Origin: Streptomyces camelliae
GTDB lineage: Bacteria; Actinomycetota; Actinomycetes; Streptomycetales; Streptomycetaceae
Reading direction: 5' to 3'
Length of the DNA: 64,000 nucleotides
NCBI RefSeq assembly: GCF_027625935.1
Contig: NZ_CP115300.1
Location: 6,324,001 to 6,388,000, forward strand
Shown here: positions 39,464-49,022 of the stretch, in pieces
Layout: every line of letters starts with the position of its first letter
Position numbering within the stretch: position 1 is the first letter of the stretch
The notes under the pieces: generated by a model
Told to the model about the DNA's origin: nothing
The model's database searches: none
Seen by the model: the letters and a program-made list of their open reading frames with translations, nothing else
Position numbers and translations under genes: made by a program

Positions 39464-39922
39464 ATGGCGATCCAGGTCGGCGACAAGGCCCCCGACTTCG
39501 AGCTCAAGGACAACCACGGCGCCACCGTGAAGCTCTCGGACTTCCGCGGCGAGAAGAACGTCGTCCTGCTCTTCTACCCCTTCGCCTTCACCGGCGTGTG
39601 CACCGGCGAGCTGTGCGAGCTGCGCGACAACCTGCCGAAGTTCTCCGACCGCGGCACCCAGGTGCTCGCCGTCTCCAACGACTCCATCCACACCCTGCGC
39701 GTCTTCGCCGAGCAGGAGGGCCTGGAGTACCCGCTGCTGAGCGACTTCTGGCCGCACGGCAACGTCTCGCGCGCATACGGCGTCTTCGACGAGGACAAGG
39801 GCTGCGCCGTGCGGGGCACCTTCATCATCGACAAGGAGGGCGTCGTGCGCTGGACCGTGGTCAACGGCCTGCCGGACGCCCGTGACCTGAACGAGTACGT
39901 GAAGGCGCTCGACACCCTGTAG
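39464..39922 (+). CDS. ahpE: Peroxiredoxin, AhpE type
   Basis: A 152-residue thiol peroxidase that reduces peroxides and peroxynitrite. The peroxidatic cysteine is C46 in [16 protein letters not shown], with P39 and T43 at the usual positions; C51 is a possible resolving residue. The start [19 protein letters not shown] is typical of the AhpE/BCP group. Location is cytoplasmic. It lies between DUF3052 and the terD genes with its own intergenic regions, so it is probably a separate unit, although the Ter neighbourhood is also stress-related. Confidence 0.9.
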
Positions 39923-40060: not shown

Positions 40061-40636
40061 GTGGGAGTCAGCCTCAGCAAGGGCGGCAACGTATCGCTGA
40101 CGAAGGAGGCCCCGGGCCTGACCGCCGTCATCGTCGGTCTGGGCTGGGACGTGCGCACCACGACCGGCACCGACTTCGACCTCGACGCCAGCGCGCTGCT
40201 GCTGAACAACGCAGGCAAGGTCGCGAGCGACCAGCACTTCGTCTTCTTCAACAACCTCAAGAGCCCCGACGGCTCCGTCGAGCACACCGGTGACAACCTC
40301 ACCGGTGAGGGCGAGGGCGACGACGAGGCCATCAAGGTCAACCTGGCCGGCGTCCCGGCCGACATCGAGAAGATCGTCTTCCCGGTGTCGATCTACGACG
40401 CCGAGAACCGCCAGCAGTCCTTCGGCCAGGTCCGCAACGCCTTCATCCGCGTCGTGAACCAGGCCAACCAGCAGGAGATCGCCCGCTACGACCTGAGCGA
40501 GGACGCCTCCACCGAGACCGCCATGGTCTTCGGCGAGCTGTACCGGCACGGGGCGGAGTGGAAGTTCCGCGCCATCGGCCAGGGCTACGCCTCCGGTCTG
40601 CGCGGCATCGCCCAGGACTTCGGCGTCAACGTCTGA
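40061..40636 (+). CDS. terD: TerD-family stress protein (paralog 1)
   Basis: A 191-residue TerD protein: [18 protein letters not shown] at the start, the calcium-binding core [11 protein letters not shown], the block [22 protein letters not shown], and [23 protein letters not shown] at the end. TerD proteins bind Ca2+ and are linked to tellurite, phage and general stress responses; in S. coelicolor they affect development. The GTG has TGGAGGA upstream. A second copy follows after 101 bp, with stretches nearly identical in DNA. It is probably cotranscribed with it. Confidence 0.94.
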
Positions 40637-41004
40637 CGTACGCCGGTCTGTGTATGCCGTCCGGCGCCGCACCGTTCACGGGCGGCGCCGGACGCGCAGG
40701 ACAACGACAGAAGCACCACCAGGGGAGGACCAGCATCATGGGCGTCACGCTCGCCAAGGGAGGCAACGTCTCCCTCTCCAAGGCCGCACCGAACCTCACG
40801 AACGTCATGATCGGCCTCGGCTGGGACGCGCGGTCCACCACCGGCGCCCCCTTCGACCTGGACGCCAGCGCCCTGCTGTGCGGCGCCGGCAACCGGGTGA
40901 TGGGCGACGAGTGGTTCGTCTTCTACAACCAGCTCAAGAGCCCCGACGGCTCGGTCGAGCACACCGGTGACAACCTCACCGGTGAGGGCGAGGGCGACGA
41001 CGAG
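40256..41004 (+). repeat. 72-bp near-identical segments in the tandem terD genes
   Basis: 40256-40327 and 40933-41004 differ at a single base (a synonymous C/G in the Ser codon). A second pair, about 62 bp (40491-40552 and 41161-41222), has two differences. The flanking coding sequence is clearly more divergent. Confidence 0.85.
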
Positions 41005-41316
41005 ACGATCCTGGTGGACCTCACCAAGGTGCCGCCGCAGTGCGAGAAGATCGTCTTCCCGGTCTCGATCCACCTGGCCGACGAGCGCGGCCAGACCTTC
41101 GGCCAGGTCTCCAACGCCTTCATCCGCGTGCTCAACCAGGCCGACGGCCAGGAGCTCGCGCGCTACGACCTGAGCGAGGACGCCTCCACCGAGACCGCCA
41201 TGATCTTCGGCGAGCTCTACCGCTACCAGGGCGAGTGGAAGTTCCGCGCCGTCGGCCAGGGGTACGCGTCGGGGCTGCGCGGTATCGCCCTCGACTTCGG
41301 GGTGAACGTCTCGTAG
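40738..41316 (+). CDS. terD: TerD-family stress protein (paralog 2)
   Basis: A 192-residue TerD protein, a tandem duplicate of the gene at 40061. It keeps the core [27 protein letters not shown] and the [17 protein letters not shown] end. It differs mainly in residues 30-60 and in [17 protein letters not shown]. The ATG has GGGGAGG upstream. Part of the reading frame is almost identical to the first copy at the nucleotide level (see 40933-41004), suggesting gene conversion or a recent duplication. It is followed by the TerC-like gene. Confidence 0.94.
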
Positions 41317-41470: not shown

Positions 41471-42610
41471 GTGCTTCTGAAAACCTTCGGCTGGTCGTTC
41501 GCGGTGACCGCGCTCGGCCTCGTCGCCGCCGTCTTCTACGGAGGGTGGGAGGGCTTCGGGGTCGTGGCGATCCTCGCCGTCCTGGAGATCTCTCTGTCGT
41601 TCGACAACGCCGTGGTCAACGCCGGAATCCTGAAGAAGATGAACGCCTTCTGGCAGAAGATCTTCCTCACGGTCGGCGTCCTGATCGCCGTGTTCGGCAT
41701 GCGACTGGTCTTCCCCGTCGTCATCGTCGCCATCACCGCGAAGCTCAACCCGTACGACGCCGTCCACCTGGCCCTCACGGACAAGGACCAGTACCAGCAG
41801 CTGGTCACCGACGCCCACCCGGCGATCGCCGCCTTCGGCGGAATGTTCCTGCTGATGATCTTCCTCGACTTCATCTTCGAGGACCGGGACATCCAGTGGC
41901 TGCGCTGGATCGAGCGGCCGCTGGCCAAGCTCGGCAAGGTCGACATGCTGTCGGTCTGCATCGCGCTGATCGTCCTGCTGATCACCTCCTTCACCTTCGC
42001 CACCCACGCCCACCAGCACGGCGGCGCCCACGTCGACAAGGCGCAGACGGTCCTGATCTCCGGCATCGCCGGCCTGATCACGTACATGATCGTCGGCGGT
42101 CTGTCCGGCTACTTCGAGGACAAGCTGGAGGAAGAGGAGGAGCGCGAGCACGAGGAGGAGGAAGAAGCCGCCCGCACCGGCAAGCAGAAGTCCGCGGTGC
42201 TGCTGGCCGGCCAGGCCGCGTTCTTCATGTTCCTCTACCTGGAGGTCCTGGACGCCTCCTTCTCCTTCGACGGTGTGATCGGCGCCTTCGCCATCACCAA
42301 CGACATCGTGATGATGGCCCTCGGCCTCGGCATCGGCGCGATGTACGTCCGGTCGCTCACGGTCTACCTGGTCCGCCAGGGCACCCTCGACGACTACGTC
42401 TACCTGGAGCACGGCGCCCACTACGCCATCGGCGCCCTGGCCGTGATCCTCATGGTCACCATCCAGTACGAGATCAACGAGGTCATCACCGGTCTCGTCG
42501 GCGTCGTCCTGATCGGCTGGTCCTTCTGGTCCTCCGTCCGCCGCAACCGTGCGCTCGCGACGGCCGGCGAGGGCAGCGACGAGAAGGCCGAGGTGCCCTC
42601 CGGGGTGTGA
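41471..42610 (+). CDS. TerC-like integral membrane protein, DUF475 family
   Basis: A 379-residue membrane protein with about nine hydrophobic segments. Two copies of the TerC-type acidic motif are visible: LEISLSFDNAVVNAG near residue 38 and LDASFSFDGVIGAF near 262, each placing aspartates in the membrane. Between the halves is a Glu-rich cytoplasmic loop (KLEEEEEREHEEEEEA, about 218-233) and a His-rich stretch THAHQHGGAH. TerC relatives are linked to Mn2+ export or metal loading of secreted proteins; the DUF475 branch accompanies terD genes. GTG start. Confidence 0.88.
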   Translation: MLLKTFGWSFAVTALGLVAAVFYGGWEGFGVVAILAVLEISLSFDNAVVNAGILKKMNAFWQKIFLTVGVLIAVFGMRLVFPVVIVAITAKLNPYDAVHLALTDKDQYQQLVTDAHPAIAAFGGMFLLMIFLDFIFEDRDIQWLRWIERPLAKLGKVDMLSVCIALIVLLITSFTFATHAHQHGGAHVDKAQTVLISGIAGLITYMIVGGLSGYFEDKLEEEEEREHEEEEEAARTGKQKSAVLLAGQAAFFMFLYLEVLDASFSFDGVIGAFAITNDIVMMALGLGIGAMYVRSLTVYLVRQGTLDDYVYLEHGAHYAIGALAVILMVTIQYEINEVITGLVGVVLIGWSFWSSVRRNRALATAGEGSDEKAEVPSGV

Positions 42611-42706: not shown

Positions 42707-43441
42707 ATGGGGTTCTTCGACGGACTGATGGGAGCGCGGCTCTCCGACTTCGACTCGGGCGAGGCCGCGACCGGCTCCATCCAGCTCACCCGGCGGCATC
42801 AGACGGTGTCGCTCACCAAGCAGGGCGCGGCCACGGGCAACCTGCGGGTCAACCTGACCTGGCGGATGCGCACGTCCGACTTCGACCCCGTCGCGCGGGG
42901 CAGCCTCTTCCGGCACCCCTTCCGGGCCCTCAAACCCCAGGAGGTGCTCGGCCACGGTCAGTCCATGGTCAACGTCGACCTCGACCTCGGCTGCCTGTAC
43001 GAGCTGACCGACGGCACGAAGGGCGTCGTCCAGCCGCTCGGCAACTACCTGGGCGACGTCAACGCCCCGCCGTACATCAAGCTCAGCGGCGACGACCGGT
43101 TCGGCTCGGCGTCCGGCGAGACGATGTACGTCAATCTCGACCACCGCGACGCCATCAAACGCCTGCTGGTCTTCGTCTACATCTACGACCAGACCCCGGC
43201 CTTCGACCGCACCCACGCCATCGTCACGCTGTACCCCAGCAACGGCCCCCGGATAGAGATCGGCCTGGACGAACGCCATCCCCAGGCCCGCTCCTGCGCG
43301 GTGGTGATGATCGAGAACGTGAAGGGCGAACTGACGGTCCGCCGCGAGGTGAAGTTCGTCTACGGCTTCCAGGGGGAGCTGGACCGGCTGTACGGGTGGG
43401 GGCTGCAGTGGGGCAGGGGGTACAAGACGGCGGACCGGTGA
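42707..43441 (+). CDS. TerA-like / TerD-superfamily tellurium resistance protein
   Basis: A 244-residue protein. It opens with an amphipathic MGFFDGLMGARLSDF and a strand-rich segment (VSLTKQGAATGNLRVNLTWRM). A TerD-like domain follows: MVNVDLDLGCLYELTDGTKG is the Asp-rich core, then PPYIKLSGDDRFGSASGE. The region near the end is longer than in TerD and resembles TerA/TerX relatives. It is separated from the TerC-like gene by a terminator and is convergent, 12 bp away, with the next TerD-family gene. A role as peripheral partner of the TerC membrane complex is inferred. Confidence 0.8.
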   Translation: MGFFDGLMGARLSDFDSGEAATGSIQLTRRHQTVSLTKQGAATGNLRVNLTWRMRTSDFDPVARGSLFRHPFRALKPQEVLGHGQSMVNVDLDLGCLYELTDGTKGVVQPLGNYLGDVNAPPYIKLSGDDRFGSASGETMYVNLDHRDAIKRLLVFVYIYDQTPAFDRTHAIVTLYPSNGPRIEIGLDERHPQARSCAVVMIENVKGELTVRREVKFVYGFQGELDRLYGWGLQWGRGYKTADR

Positions 43442-43453
43442 ACGCGGCCCCTC

Positions 43454-44200
43454 TCACCGCCCGATGAACTGCGGCCCCTGCGGCGGCAGCCGGAAGTTCG
43501 GGTCGGCGGCGACCGGCACCGGCACCGGCTGCGGGTACCCGTACGCGGGCGCGGCCGATGTCGGCTGCGGATAGCCGTACGCCGGCGGCTGCTGCGGTAC
43601 GGCCGTCGTCGGCTGCTCGGGAGGCAACGGCTGGGACGCCGTGGGCTCCGGCTCGGCCTCCGACTCGTCCACCGAGATGCCGAAGTCCGTCGCGAGCCCC
43701 TTCAGCCCGTCCTGGTACCCCTCGCCCAGCGCGCGGAACTTCCAGCCCTCCCCGCGCCGGTACAGCTCACCGCAGATCAGCGCCGTCTCCGCGCCGGTCT
43801 CCGGCTTGATCTCGAAGCTGGCCAGCGGCTCCCCGTCGGCGACCGCGTCGTACAGCAGGATGCACAGCGCCGGCACCTGGTCGAAGGTGACGCCGTCGGC
43901 GGAGGCGACGAGCAGGATCCGCCCGACGCCCGGCTCGACACCGGGAAGATCTGTCTGGATCGTGTCGGTCAGTCCCTCGGCGACGCGTTTCTTGCCGAGC
44001 CGCCACACCTTTCCGGAGGGATGCCGGGGCTGGTTGTAGAAGACGAAGTCCTCGTCCGAGCGCACACGGCCGTCGGGGCCGAGCAGCAGCGCCGAGGCGT
44101 CCACGTCCGGGACTCCCTGCCCGGGGGTCCAGCGCAGCACGGCCCGGACCGTGGTGGCTTCCAGCGGGACGTTCGACCCCTTCAGCATCGCGTGCGTCAT
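43454..44200 (-). CDS. TerD-domain protein with Pro-rich C-terminal tail
   Basis: A 248-residue protein. A TerD domain covers about residues 1-175: [20 protein letters not shown], the core [26 protein letters not shown], and the end [23 protein letters not shown]. The remaining 70 residues are disordered, acidic and then Pro/Tyr/Gln-rich with AYGYPQP repeats, a likely protein-interaction tail. It is divergent from the aldolase gene that starts the biosynthetic operon, across 184 bp. The pattern of TerD next to that operon is known from Ter gene neighbourhoods. Confidence 0.88.
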
Positions 44201-44384
44201 GCGGTCATCCTGCCTTCTCGGTCCTGGTCACGACAATGCGGGGGTAGGGCCGCCGAAGGCCGCCGACACAAGCGAGTTACCGGAAATTCATGCCCGCAGG
44301 GAACCCCGGACACGGGTCTCTACGTACTATTACCGGCCACCTTTTACCGAACACAGACCCGGGCCCGCGCCTGTAGGGAGTTAT

Positions 44385-45554
44385 ATGCGTCATTTCGGGC
44401 ACATCGCCCCCGAGGTGCGGCAGCGCCTCTTCCACCGGGAGCCGTGCGACTTCACCGCCGACTCTCCGGCCCGGCTGCTCGCCTGCGCCCTCGGCGCCAC
44501 CCTGTACAGCCCGGCAACCCGGCTGCGGCTCGCCGACGACATCGTCAAGCAGGCCGGGAACGGCGTGGTCTCGATGGTGCTGTGCCTGGAGGACTCGATC
44601 GACGACGCGGACGTCGTGGCCGGCGAGGAGAACCTGGTGCGCCAGTTCGCCGACCTCGCCGCCCGGCCCGGCACCGAGCCGCCGCTGCTCTTCATCCGGG
44701 TGCGCACCCCCGAGCAGATCCCCGACCTCGTGCACCGGCTCGGCGCGTCCGTACGCCTGCTGTCCGGGTTCGTGCTGCCGAAGTTCACCGAGGAGCGCGG
44801 TATCCCGTTCCTGGAGGCCCTGGCGGCCGCCGAGGCCGACAGCGGGCGCCGGCTGTTCGCCATGCCGGTCCTGGAGTCCCCCGAGCTGCTCTACCGCGAA
44901 TCCCGCGTGGACACCCTGGAGGGCATCGCCCGCGCGGTCGACAAGTACCGCGACCGGGTGCTGGCCCTGCGCCTCGGCGTCACCGACTTCTGCTCCTCCT
45001 ACGGCCTGCGCCGCGCCCCCGACATGACCGCCTACGACGTCCAGGTGGTCGCCTCCGTGATCGCCGACGTCGTGAACATGCTGGGCCGGGCCGACGGCAC
45101 CGGATTCACCGTGACCGGACCCGTGTGGGAGTACTTCCGGCTCTCCGAGCGCATGTTCAAGCCACAGCTGCGGCAGAGCCCCTTCCTGGAGGTGCAGGCC
45201 GTCGAGCTGCGCGAGAAGCTGCTGGAGCACGCCATGGACGGACTGCTGCGGGAGATCTCCCTCGACCACGCCAACGGTCTGCTCGGCAAGACCTGCATCC
45301 ACCCCTCCCATGTGCTGCCCGTGCACGCGCTGTCCGTGGTCAGCCACGAGGAGTACAGCGACGCCCAGGACATCCTGCGCCCCGAGCGGGGCGGCGGGGG
45401 AGTGCTCCGCTCGGCCTACACGAACAAGATGAACGAGGTGAAGCCGCACCGCGCCTGGGCCGAGCGGACCCTGCTGCGCGCCGAGGCCTTCGGCGTGGCC
45501 CACGAGGACGTCGGTTTCGTGGAGTTGCTCGCCGCCGGAATAAGGGACGCATGA
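44385..45554 (+). CDS. HpcH/HpaI aldolase / citrate-lyase beta-like enzyme of a Ter-associated operon
   Basis: A 389-residue TIM-barrel C-C lyase of the CitE class. Visible blocks are LACALGATLYSPATRL at the start, SMVLCLEDSIDDADV with the metal-binding Glu/Asp, RLLSGFVLPKF, PVLESPELLYRE and LALRLGVTDFCSSYGLRR. It is longer than CitE (about 290 residues), with a C-terminal extension ending in a helical segment. GGGAG precedes the ATG. Its stop overlaps the start of the phosphoribosyltransferase gene by four bases. In published gene-neighbourhood work such aldolases sit with PRTase and HAD genes in a predicted pathway for a nucleoside-like metabolite; the product is unknown. Confidence 0.85.
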   Translation: MRHFGHIAPEVRQRLFHREPCDFTADSPARLLACALGATLYSPATRLRLADDIVKQAGNGVVSMVLCLEDSIDDADVVAGEENLVRQFADLAARPGTEPPLLFIRVRTPEQIPDLVHRLGASVRLLSGFVLPKFTEERGIPFLEALAAAEADSGRRLFAMPVLESPELLYRESRVDTLEGIARAVDKYRDRVLALRLGVTDFCSSYGLRRAPDMTAYDVQVVASVIADVVNMLGRADGTGFTVTGPVWEYFRLSERMFKPQLRQSPFLEVQAVELREKLLEHAMDGLLREISLDHANGLLGKTCIHPSHVLPVHALSVVSHEEYSDAQDILRPERGGGGVLRSAYTNKMNEVKPHRAWAERTLLRAEAFGVAHEDVGFVELLAAGIRDA

Positions 45555-48007
45555 AGAACGCAGTGAACGACGGGGGCTGGTCCGGCACCTGGGTCGCGGA
45601 GCGGCTCGGGGTCGAACTCGTGGGCGACGAGGGCCTGCCCGCCCTGCTCGGGCTCGCCCTGCGCCGTAACCCCAAGCGGGCCCATCTGCTCGTCTCCAAC
45701 GTGCTCGGCAAGCATGTCCCGCAGTCGCCGTCCGTGGTCTACGGCCATGGGGTCCGGCTGGGTCGTCGGGTTGCCGAACTGCTGGGTGAGGCGGAGGCGG
45801 GTGCCGCTGTCGTCCTCGGCTACGCGGAGACCGCGACGGGGCTCGGCCATGCGGTGGCCGACGGGCTCGGTACGGCGCCGTATCTGCACTCCACGCGCCG
45901 ACCGGTGGCCGGGGTCGCCCGGGCGGGCGGCTTCGAGGAGTCGCACTCGCATGCCACGTCGCATCTTCTGCTGCCGGAGGATCCGTCGCTGCTGGCCGGT
46001 CACGGTCCGCTGGTCCTGGTCGACGACGAGTTCTCCACCGGTAACACCGTGCTGAACACCATTCGTGATCTGCACGAGCGGTATCCGCGCGGGCGGTATG
46101 TGGTGGTGGCGCTGGTCGACATGCGGTCGGCGGAGGACGTCGAGCGGATGGAACGGTTCGCCGGTGAGATCGGGGCGCGGGTGGATCTGATCGCCGCCGC
46201 GTCCGGGGTCGTACGGCTGCCGGAGGGTGTGCTGGAGAAGGGGCAGCGACTCGTGGCGCACCATGAGACTGCCGGGTCCGGGTCGGGTGTGGCGGCTCGC
46301 GCCGCTGTCGGGGCGCACCGGCCGAGCCGTGTGGACCTCCACTGGCCTCACCGCGTCCCGGACGGCGGGCGCCACGGTTTCACCCCCGCCCATCGCACCC
46401 GTCTCGAAGCCGCGCTGCCCGAGATGGCTGCCCGAATAGCGGAAGCCCTGCCCGCCGCCGCCCGCCGCGTCCTCGTCCTCGGCTTCGAAGAGCTGATGTA
46501 CGCCCCGCTGCGGCTCGCCCGGGAGCTGGAGCAGGTCATGGATGCCGAGGTGCGGTTCTCGACCACCACCCGGTCGCCCGTGCTCGCGCTGGACGACCCC
46601 GGCTATGCGATCCGCACCCGGCTGGTCTTCCCCGCCCATGACGACCCGGCCGACGGCCCCGGCGAGCGCTACGCGTACAACGTCGCCGGCGCCGGCTTCG
46701 ACGCCGTCGTGACCGTGGTGGACTCGGTCGCCGACACCCCCGCCCTGCACGCGCCGGACGGGCTGCTGGCCCGCCTCGCCGCCCACACCCCGCACGTCCT
46801 GCTCGCGGTCGTCCCGTCGTACGTCCCGCACGCTTCCGAAAGGCCGGCCATGCTGCCCGAGCCCCTCCGTGGCCCCGCATTCTCCAGTTACGCGCCCGAG
46901 GAGGTCGGCTGGCTGCTCCAGGACCTCTCCGACGTCACCCTGGAGGCGCCGACCGAGGAGCGGGAGGAGGCCATCCAGAGCGGCGGGGCGCACTACGCCG
47001 AGTCACTGCCGGTGGAGTACCAGCCCAGCGAGCAGTACCAGGAGCTGTTCCAGGCCGCCCTCGACGCCTCCGCCGCCCGTATCGCGCACGCCGTCGGGGT
47101 GGTGACGGAGACGGTGCTCGCCGAGCGGTCGCCGCGTCCGGTGCTGGTGTCGCTGGCGCGGGCCGGGACCCCGGTCGGCGTCCTCATGCGCCGCTGGGCG
47201 CAGTTCCGGCACGGGCTGGACCTGCCGCACTACGCCGTGTCCATCGTGCGCGGCCGGGGCATCGATGCCAACGCGCTGCGCTGGCTCGCCGCGCACCACG
47301 ACCCCCGGGACGTCGTCTTCGTGGACGGCTGGACCGGCAAGGGTGCGATCACCCGTGAACTCGCCCAGGCCATCGAGGAGTTCGAGCGGGCGGAGGGGAT
47401 CGGCGGCTTCGACCCGGAGATCGCGGTACTCGCCGACCCGGGCTCCTGCGTGCGCACCTACGGCACCCGCGAGGACTTCCTCATCCCCTCGGCCTGCCTC
47501 AACTCGACCGTCTCCGGCCTGATCTCGCGGACGGTCCTGCGCGCCGACCTGGTCGGCCCGGACGACTTCCACGGCGCGAAGTTCTACCGCGAACTCGCCG
47601 GCTCCGACGTCTCCGTGGCCTTCCTCGACGCCGTCGCCGCCCGCTTCCCCGAGGTCGCCGACACCGTCGGCACCGCCGTCAAGGAGCTGATGGCCGAGGA
47701 CCGCACCCCGACCTGGGCGGGCTGGCGGGCCGTGGAGCGGATCAGCGAGGAGTACGGCATCCACGACGTGAACCTCGTCAAGCCCGGCGTCGGCGAGACC
47801 ACCCGGGTGCTGCTGCGCCGGGTGCCCTGGAAGATCCTGGCCCGCGCAGGGGCGGGCGCCGACCTCGACCACGTACGCCTGCTCGCCGAGCAGAGGGGCG
47901 TCCCCGTCGAGGAGGTCGGCGAACTGCCGTACACCTGCGTCGGGTTGATCCACCCCCAGTACACGCGGGGCGCCACGGGCGCCGACGGCAAGGCGGTGAA
48001 CGTCTGA
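45551..48007 (+). CDS. Double phosphoribosyltransferase fused to TRSP and PELOTA-type domains
   Basis: An 818-residue multidomain protein. Residues 1-240 form a PRTase domain, with PRPP loop V156-LVDDEFSTGNT-166. Residues about 285-460 fit the TRSP domain seen C-terminal to such PRTases. Residues about 475-730 are a second PRTase-like domain with a loop VVFVDGWTGKGAI (588-600); databases also name this part cysteine protease StiP. The C-terminus, about 735-805 (VNLVKPGVGETTRVLLRRVPWKILA), resembles the PELOTA RNA-binding fold. These parts are, as I recall, often two separate proteins; here they are one chain. Both ends overlap neighbours (ATGA and TGATG), so the three-gene operon is tightly coupled. 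Confidence 0.8.
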   Translation: MKNAVNDGGWSGTWVAERLGVELVGDEGLPALLGLALRRNPKRAHLLVSNVLGKHVPQSPSVVYGHGVRLGRRVAELLGEAEAGAAVVLGYAETATGLGHAVADGLGTAPYLHSTRRPVAGVARAGGFEESHSHATSHLLLPEDPSLLAGHGPLVLVDDEFSTGNTVLNTIRDLHERYPRGRYVVVALVDMRSAEDVERMERFAGEIGARVDLIAAASGVVRLPEGVLEKGQRLVAHHETAGSGSGVAARAAVGAHRPSRVDLHWPHRVPDGGRHGFTPAHRTRLEAALPEMAARIAEALPAAARRVLVLGFEELMYAPLRLARELEQVMDAEVRFSTTTRSPVLALDDPGYAIRTRLVFPAHDDPADGPGERYAYNVAGAGFDAVVTVVDSVADTPALHAPDGLLARLAAHTPHVLLAVVPSYVPHASERPAMLPEPLRGPAFSSYAPEEVGWLLQDLSDVTLEAPTEEREEAIQSGGAHYAESLPVEYQPSEQYQELFQAALDASAARIAHAVGVVTETVLAERSPRPVLVSLARAGTPVGVLMRRWAQFRHGLDLPHYAVSIVRGRGIDANALRWLAAHHDPRDVVFVDGWTGKGAITRELAQAIEEFERAEGIGGFDPEIAVLADPGSCVRTYGTREDFLIPSACLNSTVSGLISRTVLRADLVGPDDFHGAKFYRELAGSDVSVAFLDAVAARFPEVADTVGTAVKELMAEDRTPTWAGWRAVERISEEYGIHDVNLVKPGVGETTRVLLRRVPWKILARAGAGADLDHVRLLAEQRGVPVEEVGELPYTCVGLIHPQYTRGATGADGKAVNV

Positions 48008-48816
48008 TGCCGGTGCTGGTGGCGAGCGACCTCGACCGTACGCTGATCTACTCCTCGGCGGCCCTCGCGCTGACCATGCCGGACCCGCGGGCGCCCCGGC
48101 TGCTGTGCGTGGAGGTGCACGAGGCCAGGCCGCTGTCGTACATGACCGAGACGGCCGCCCAGCTGCTGACCGACCTCGGGGACGCGGCCGTCTTCGTGCC
48201 GACGACCACGCGGACCCGCAAGCAGTACCAGCGGATCAATCTGCCCGGACCGCCGCCGGCGTACGCGATCTGTGCCAACGGCGGCCATCTGCTGGTCGAC
48301 GGGGTCACCGACACCGACTGGCACGCGGGCGTGCAGGCCCGGCTGGCCGACGAGTGCGCGCCGCTGGCGGAGGTGCGCGAGCATCTGGCACGGACGGCGG
48401 ACCCGGCGTGGGTGCGCAAGCACCGGGTCGCCGAGGAGCTGTTCACCTATCTGGTCGTCGAGCGCGAGCTGCTGCCCGAGGAGTGGGTGAAGGAGCTGGC
48501 GGTGTGGGCGGAGGCCCGGGGCTGGACGGTCTCCCTCCAGGGCCGCAAGATCTACGCCGTCCCGAAGCCGCTCACCAAGAGCGCGGCGGTGCGGGAGGTG
48601 GCCCGCCGTACCGGCGCGGAGCTGACCCTGGCGGCCGGCGACTCCCTCCTGGACGCCGACCTCCTCCTGGCCGCCGACCGGGGCTGGCGCCCGGGGCACG
48701 GCGAGCTTGCCGACACGGGCTGGACGGCCCCGGAGATCGGCGCGCTGCCCGAGCGGGGGGTCCTGGCGGGGGAGCGGATCCTGCGGGAGTTTCTCCGGGC
48801 TGCCCGGCAGGGTTAG
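48007..48816 (+). CDS. HAD-superfamily phosphatase of the Ter-associated operon
   Basis: A 269-residue HAD hydrolase. Motif I is D8-L-D10-R-T (ASDLDRTL), motif II the Thr cluster FVPTTTRTRKQY, motif III a lysine in LTKSAAVREVA, and motif IV GDSLLDADLLLAA. The layout with a cap between motifs II and III is like sucrose-phosphate phosphatase and Cof-type enzymes, which act on sugar phosphates. It starts one base into the upstream stop (TGATG). In this context it probably dephosphorylates the product of the PRTase (inference). Its stop overlaps the convergent FmdB-like gene by four bases. Confidence 0.87.
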   Translation: MPVLVASDLDRTLIYSSAALALTMPDPRAPRLLCVEVHEARPLSYMTETAAQLLTDLGDAAVFVPTTTRTRKQYQRINLPGPPPAYAICANGGHLLVDGVTDTDWHAGVQARLADECAPLAEVREHLARTADPAWVRKHRVAEELFTYLVVERELLPEEWVKELAVWAEARGWTVSLQGRKIYAVPKPLTKSAAVREVARRTGAELTLAAGDSLLDADLLLAADRGWRPGHGELADTGWTAPEIGALPERGVLAGERILREFLRAARQG

Positions 48817-49022
48817 CCGCAGCACCCTCCACCACAACACCCGCCGCCCCCGCTGGAGGCCGGCGCCTTGGCGGCCGTACCTCCGACCGCCACGGTGGAC
48901 AGCAACTTCACCGTGTCGGCGTGTCCTGCGGGGCACGTCGCGGGGGCGGCCGACTCCGCCATCGGTCGGCTGAGTTCGAATGTGTCGCCGCAGGTCCGGC
49001 AGCGGTATTCGTAGCGAGGCAT
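48813..49022 (-). CDS. FmdB-family zinc ribbon protein with Cys-Cys tail
   Basis: A 69-residue protein. MPRYEYRCRTCGDTFE supplies the first zinc pair C8/C11. The second half-site is C30-PAG-H34 instead of the usual CxxC, giving a CCCH-type site. A short linker leads to a Gly-rich tail with two CC pairs (C62-C63 and C67-C68) at the very end. The tail could bind metal or undergo thiol exchange. It is divergent from the PBP gene by 175 bp and convergent with the HAD gene. The function of this family in streptomycetes is unknown. Confidence 0.82.
   Translation of the reverse strand: MPRYEYRCRTCGDTFELSRPMAESAAPATCPAGHADTVKLLSTVAVGGTAAKAPASSGGGGCCGGGCCG

Follow-up and report, generated by a model that had tools for sequence, protein, structure and literature searches.

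Two linked questions are raised by the three-gene operon at positions 44385–48816 of a 64,000-nucleotide stretch of the Streptomyces camelliae chromosome (contig NZ_CP115300.1, 6,324,001–6,388,000; hereafter the window): what does the operon make, and does its middle gene encode one protein or two? The stress-linked operon, common among soil bacteria, unites two proteins in one chain, and a hidden second start could still yield the second protein alone. Because relatives of its enzymes cluster in the Ter loci of plasmids and phages, the operon in the window belongs to a known type of system, the Ter biosynthetic module, in an actinobacterial form that is ordinary by content. What is new is a conserved internal start, repeated fusion and a link of the phosphatase to an enzyme of solved structure. 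What the Ter module makes has been at issue since 2012, and the module rides many plasmids and is near-universal in the Streptomyces genomes examined.

The three genes overlap on the forward strand in the order lyase, phosphoribosyltransferase (PRTase) fusion and HAD phosphatase. The first (44385–45554) encodes a 389-residue C–C bond lyase with a CitE-like TIM barrel (PF15617, E 4.9e-121), the second (45551–48007) an 818-residue protein designated P0002, and the third (48007–48816) a 269-residue HAD phosphatase of Ter-module type designated P0003. As the first-pass annotation had it, the overlaps are four nucleotides (ATGA) between lyase and fusion and one (TGATG) between fusion and HAD. The four families suggested for P0002 were all matched in Pfam, namely PRTase_2 at residues 32–219 (E 7.7e-69), TRSP at 271–406 (1.2e-40), StiP at 445–695 (5.4e-107) and PELOTA_1 at 722–801 (5.5e-35). 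The first half (residues 1–433, 45551–46849) is an APRT/XPRT-type PRTase followed by TRSP; it has the PRTase fold, and its phosphoribosyl pyrophosphate (PRPP) loop, VDDEFSTGNT, is intact. A sequence search of solved structures with P0002 returned no match. P0003 gave no Pfam family above cut-off, and an alignment of five rows shows that its HAD catalytic residues are retained. The proposed enzyme types hold on these grounds: the lyase and PRTase domains by Pfam, with StiP assigned as a PRTase by its predicted model, and the HAD by its catalytic residues. No anti-phage defence match was obtained with PADLOC for six proteins.

Judged by the compared loci, the operon shares with the Ter biosynthetic module a lyase, PRTase_2–TRSP, StiP–PELOTA and a HAD protein beside TerD/TerC, and differs from it by its fused PRTases, another gene order, the lack of a linked ATP-grasp gene, its chromosomal location and its near-universal occurrence in the genus. 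The Ter cluster on a Tsukamurella tyrosinosolvens plasmid (L022) has the gene order seen here (lyase, PRTase, StiP, HAD) with TerD/TerC flanks, but its PRTase and StiP are two genes. They are also separate in the IncHI2 ter locus of Escherichia coli (pF2_14D_HI2, L023), which holds relatives of all four enzymes in the order ATP-grasp, PRTase, HAD, StiP, lyase. Relatives of all four lie together in a Pseudomonas aeruginosa plasmid module, and those of PRTase, HAD and StiP in phage ME3. The lyase is 52%, 32% and 31% identical to its Tsukamurella, IncHI2 and P. aeruginosa relatives, respectively, and relatives of P0003 occur in the Ter loci L022, L025 and L023.

A P0002 match was present in 197 of 199 Streptomyces genomes, 2567 of 72,556 plasmid records and four phage records, and no relative was found in viral contigs. 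StiP was found in 93 of 394 genomes of the class and 15 of 296 across the phylum, one in each count being below the family cut-off. The unannotated 15-kb faecal record MT836648 ("Bacteriophage sp.") has a P0002 match of 43% identity over 57% of its length. A genome-contig search yielded 560 relatives, of which the best 80 loci were analyzed. Both TerC and a TerD-like gene are present in 66 of these 80, and in the other 14 less than 4 kb of sequence precedes the StiP match. TerD was detected in 15/15 StiP-positive non-Streptomyces genomes versus 0/14 StiP-negative ones, and in both StiP-negative Streptomyces; the StiP-negative comparison genomes are of the same class and several come from one genus, hence they are not independent. 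The Ter linkage claimed for the operon is borne out by these counts. Five loci of family f85 (L132–L135 and L137) have no TerD/TerC within the fetched stretches, and TerD lies 14–17 kb away in three f85 genomes.

The joining of the two PRTase parts in one chain had been singled out as unusual, a view that the genus-wide distribution of P0002 does not uphold. Both halves can be seen in 79 of the best 80 loci, and a single open frame spans them in 77 of these; in each of 40 additional Streptomyces loci, the reading frame stays open across the junction and for at least 380 codons upstream. Fusion as a rarity was therefore rejected, the fused form being near-universal in Streptomyces. Frame breaks, either errors or real, interrupt the fusion gene in two draft Streptomyces genomes (L038 and L041), one of them exactly in the fusion linker. 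Of 14 relatives with separate genes, 12 have an in-frame StiP start codon (ATG, GTG or TTG) that overlaps the stop of the PRTase; in the other two, the StiP frame opens 84 nucleotides past the PRTase stop (L137) or starts with CTG (L136). A tree of the StiP half with 33 rows required three changes of fusion state and rejected a single fused clade (approximately unbiased test, p-AU 0.00036), as did a StiP tree of 26 rows without three long branches (four changes, p-AU 8.9e-7) and a tree of the PRTase half with 25 rows (five changes, p-AU 3e-59). These trees thus place three or more events of fusion or fission; their rows were picked by availability, several deep branches are left open, and the fused label was set after the first tree was viewed. 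Within one genus (code g231; L127 and L126), one genome carries the fused form and the other the split form.

The fusion junction carries signals of a translation start. An in-frame ATG at 46850 (M434) is preceded at a distance of 6 nucleotides by GAAAGG (46838–46843), a Shine–Dalgarno (SD)-like sequence whose duplex energy (−7.4) equals that of the lyase start. In the alignment, M434 is located one residue before the split StiP start of L017. The putative internal product would be a 385-residue StiP–PELOTA protein (46850–48007). The in-frame ATG is present at the junction of all of the best 80 genome-contig loci. Because these are close relatives, two further Streptomyces sets were drawn: an even set of 20 loci (L158–L177) at even steps of the P0002 match ranking, and a diverged set of 20 loci (L138–L157) from the low-identity end of the P0002 matches listed, weaker matches being excluded. 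The even set showed ATG in 17 loci, GTG at the same codon in two (L170 and L171, with GGAG upstream) and no start in one; an SD-like motif precedes the ATG in 16 of the 17, as exact GAAAGG in 11 and as CAGGAG, CAGGAA, GGAAAG and the like in the rest. In the diverged set, ATG was found in seven loci, six of which have an SD-like motif though never GAAAGG; two carry GTG or TTG, and 11 have no start. The three sets may share species and their rows are related, so the counts are not independent.

Codon usage at the junction was examined in an alignment of 101 coding sequences (the own gene, the 80 loci and the 20 diverged loci), in which the surrounding linker is variable. At residue 431, AGG or AGA is used for 74 of 75 Arg codons, versus at most 18% in any other Arg column and a mean of 4% over all 57 columns; at residue 430, GAA accounts for 70 of 74 Glu codons, the mean over 35 columns being 15%. 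GAAAGG stands before the ATG in 68 of 87 rows and in none of the 13 rows lacking the ATG, with 14 occurrences elsewhere in all rows pooled (row L037, cut by a contig edge, was dropped from these counts). A conserved in-frame start with an SD-like sequence is found in part of the genus, and we infer a ribosome-binding site that is under selection in much of Streptomyces and lost elsewhere. Because most of the Streptomyces examined keep start signals where the separate StiP of relatives begins, the gene probably makes both the 818-residue fusion and free StiP–PELOTA. The 818-residue frame is open throughout, and the gene may yield a second product besides the full-length chain. Internal in-frame starts are known from infB and clpB; the likeness lies in one frame possibly giving two proteins, and the difference is that here the start sits at the StiP start of split relatives. 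The junction displays apparent stages of fusion: an overlapping gene pair, a fused gene whose start persists where it was, and a fused gene without it. At another site in P0002, residue 603, 93 of 101 rows (92%) have GAA as the Glu codon, although the gene mostly uses GAG.

As for what the operon makes, Anantharaman, Iyer and Aravind reportedly described the Ter biosynthetic module in 2012 and predicted a nucleoside-like product. The accessible parts of PMC7824862 and PMC8115787 describe the Ter system with this predicted product, citing the 2012 paper; the nucleoside-like product is thus a prediction of the literature. We consider the chances about evenly balanced that the window holds a streptomycete chromosomal Ter module in which the coupled operon, together with a TerD/TerC membrane system, produces a small phosphoribosylated metabolite against envelope or divalent-metal stress. 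In such a pathway, the CitE-like lyase would supply a small carbonyl or acid unit, and the PRTase_2 half would transfer phosphoribose from PRPP to a base-like acceptor. The StiP half, with its altered PRPP loop (VFVDGWTGKGAI), would bind a phosphoribosyl ligand, and the L30e/L7Ae-type PELOTA domain might tether it to RNA or a ribonucleoprotein. The HAD would then take off a phosphate, and TerD/TerC proteins would read the product. The parts of this scheme that the sequence itself supports are the domains, the intact PRTase_2 and HAD motifs, the gene coupling and the co-inheritance with TerD.

Several observations weigh against the metabolite scheme and the two-product gene. Hybridization energy alone does not distinguish the junction, as 45% of other ATGs also reach −6; the ATG is gone in 13 of the 20 diverged Streptomyces loci; the fused loci outside Streptomyces share no common site, with no start codon nearby in four of nine and equally strong candidates by energy in two (L124, TTG, −9.2; L127, GTG, −7.6); and the one experimental lead found, phosphatase assays of a HAD from a Ter module that was described in print as a trehalose-6-phosphate (T6P) phosphatase, does not directly fit a nucleoside-like product. 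The losses of the start would suit a junction in which the SD-like sequence and start codon are a fading relic of the StiP start that once stood there, or mark a pause at rare codons, with no protein made. However, start codon and spacing are kept within the variable linker while the SD-like sequence shifts its form, and GTG substitutes for ATG in two loci with GGAG upstream; we regard this explanation as somewhat unlikely. The nature of the StiP half has been construed differently as well. Pfam and NCBI records name StiP a cysteine protease, but no cysteine column is invariant (the best is occupied in 26 of 47 rows) and the model has a PyrR-type PRTase fold; the fold-search rows listed include no protease fold, which excludes nothing, and the database name is hardly credible as a function. 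An acidic pair in the PRPP loop is a criterion for type I PRTases. StiP has V591, D592, G593 and W594 in 47 of 47 rows, with one acid in the loop instead of the pair. This altered loop, the PyrR-type fold, the predicted L30e/L7Ae fold of the PELOTA part (a kink-turn-type RNA-binding fold) and the retention of the internal start in most Streptomyces examined are in line with an RNA-binding regulator of PyrR type, which would respond to PRPP or to what the module makes and would be supplied free of the enzyme by the internal start. Against this, the repeated fusion of StiP with PRTase_2 suggests shared catalysis, no RNA target was found (Rfam on the window gave a single tRNA and nothing else), and PyrR, to our knowledge, needs no L7Ae-type domain; a regulatory role is rather unlikely. 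Both PRTase domains share the fold of PyrR and APRT/XPRT, and the protein differs from these by the PELOTA/L30e-type domain, the altered StiP loop and TRSP. A combination of both ideas, in which one frame gives the 818-residue double-PRTase enzyme and, from an internal ribosome-binding site retained ever since the genes fused, a free 385-residue PyrR-like RNA-binding sensor of PRPP or a Ter metabolite, is distinctly unlikely. If true, the free sensor would couple envelope-stress signalling to RNA control.

The remaining alternative to a nucleoside-like product is that the HAD is a genuine phosphatase of T6P or a similar disaccharide phosphate, and that the compound made or controlled by the module is linked to trehalose. 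P0003 aligns with the HAD of the P. aeruginosa plasmid module (pPUV-9) with 28% identity over 230 aligned positions (residues 4–220 of 269, E 4.6e-15). The pPUV-9 protein is near-identical to the "Trehalose phosphatase" entries PDB 6cj0 and 6d3v (E about 1e-160), which P0003 itself matches with E 8e-12. Cysteines 85 and 231, its sole cysteines, are those named for an extrachromosomal T6P phosphatase (TPP) in the available part of PMC6838324. From the near-identity and these two cysteines, the pPUV-9 HAD is probably that enzyme or an allele of it. For inhibition of the phosphatase activity of the extrachromosomal TPP, an apparent Ki of 2.1 µM is given, and the same part of the paper states that such assays need T6P and names no substrate for the bacterial enzymes (PMC6838324). 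On the other hand, 28% identity permits a different substrate. P0003 and two relatives (L022 and L025) have no match to PF02358 (OtsB trehalose phosphatase), and the genome has a separate PF02358 gene whose best E value to P0003, 0.23, is not significant. Among the genes annotated in the Tsukamurella, IncHI2, phage ME3 and P. aeruginosa stretches, none is called a T6P synthase. A trehalose-linked product appears quite improbable. In a limited literature search with one spelling, no link of this HAD and TPP to the Ter module was found in print. The likeness to Paer-ecTPP (6cj0, 6d3v) is that a protein near-identical to it sits in a Ter module and is related to the third gene of the operon; the differences are that identity to P0003 is 28% and that Paer-ecTPP is known only as a trehalose phosphatase. 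As this ties the HAD to a protein of solved structure for which an assay is in use, the question of its substrate is directly testable.

The first-pass annotation had noted the lack of an ATP-grasp gene. The window indeed has no ATPgrasp_Ter (PF15632) match, other ATP-grasp families not having been scanned for there, but the genome has four ATPgrasp_Ter matches including one strong gene (118 bits, C1:1551721). This gene lies 4.8 Mb from the operon, has no TerD match within 70 kb, and was the sole genome match with the plasmid ATP-grasp protein as query. Among 30 Streptomyces compared, two of them StiP-negative, the 28 StiP-positive ones had an orthologue (E <1e-170) in 14 cases, a 44% relative in one and none in 13; the 13, together with G050, G235 and G278, gave no ATPgrasp_Ter match above 47 bits, compared with 116–118 for the own gene. 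No ATP-grasp relative lies beside the module in the 80 Streptomyces loci. Among the outgroups (20 stretches of 5.6–19.5 kb and five below 4 kb), only the Ter cluster of L136 has one (38% identity, PF15632 106 bits), which supports common descent. Adjacency to ATP-grasp was not treated as module-defining, and the annotation of the L022 and L024 stretches likewise shows no such gene. With 13 of 28 StiP-positive Streptomyces lacking the orthologue, the module seems able to work without ATP-grasp, the step being optional. ATP-grasp as an obligate module partner was rejected on the same count.

Upstream of the operon, four of the five adjoining Ter-family genes previously counted are clear TerD/TerC members: two TerD genes (40061–40636 and 40738–41316, both +), a TerC/DUF475 membrane protein matched in Pfam (41471–42610, +) and a TerD-domain protein divergent from the operon (43454–44200, −; PF02342, 2.7e-44). 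The fifth, a TerD-like protein at 42707–43441 (+), is below the Pfam cut-off (PF02342, 14.9 of 25.3 bits). The genome has 15 TerD matches, only three within the window; several are paired elsewhere. Wherever both the minus-strand TerD gene and the operon were matched (73 loci), the two are divergent. In the intergenic promoter region (44201–44384), alignment of the window with 39 Streptomyces loci showed strongly conserved blocks including TACGTACTATTACCGGCCACC and GGGAAC. This region, the operon's own divergent promoter region, is separate from a sequence before the first TerD gene (39758–39786, +) that matches 28 of 29 positions of the published sigma-E promoter of sco2368. The match, with its one mismatch, suggests that the first TerD gene is probably the SCO2368 orthologue; it lies inside a peroxiredoxin open reading frame, and coding constraint could also preserve it. 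In the available part of PMC6767563, the sigma-E site of sco2368 is tabulated and its product increases with vancomycin. According to Table 1 of PMC3765725, sco2364, a gene that may belong to this cluster, has an antisense RNA that three Streptomyces share. Downstream, a 69-residue cysteine-rich protein (48813–49022, −) with a zinc-ribbon-like start and a GGGGCCGGGCCG tail overlaps the HAD stop convergently with its own stop.
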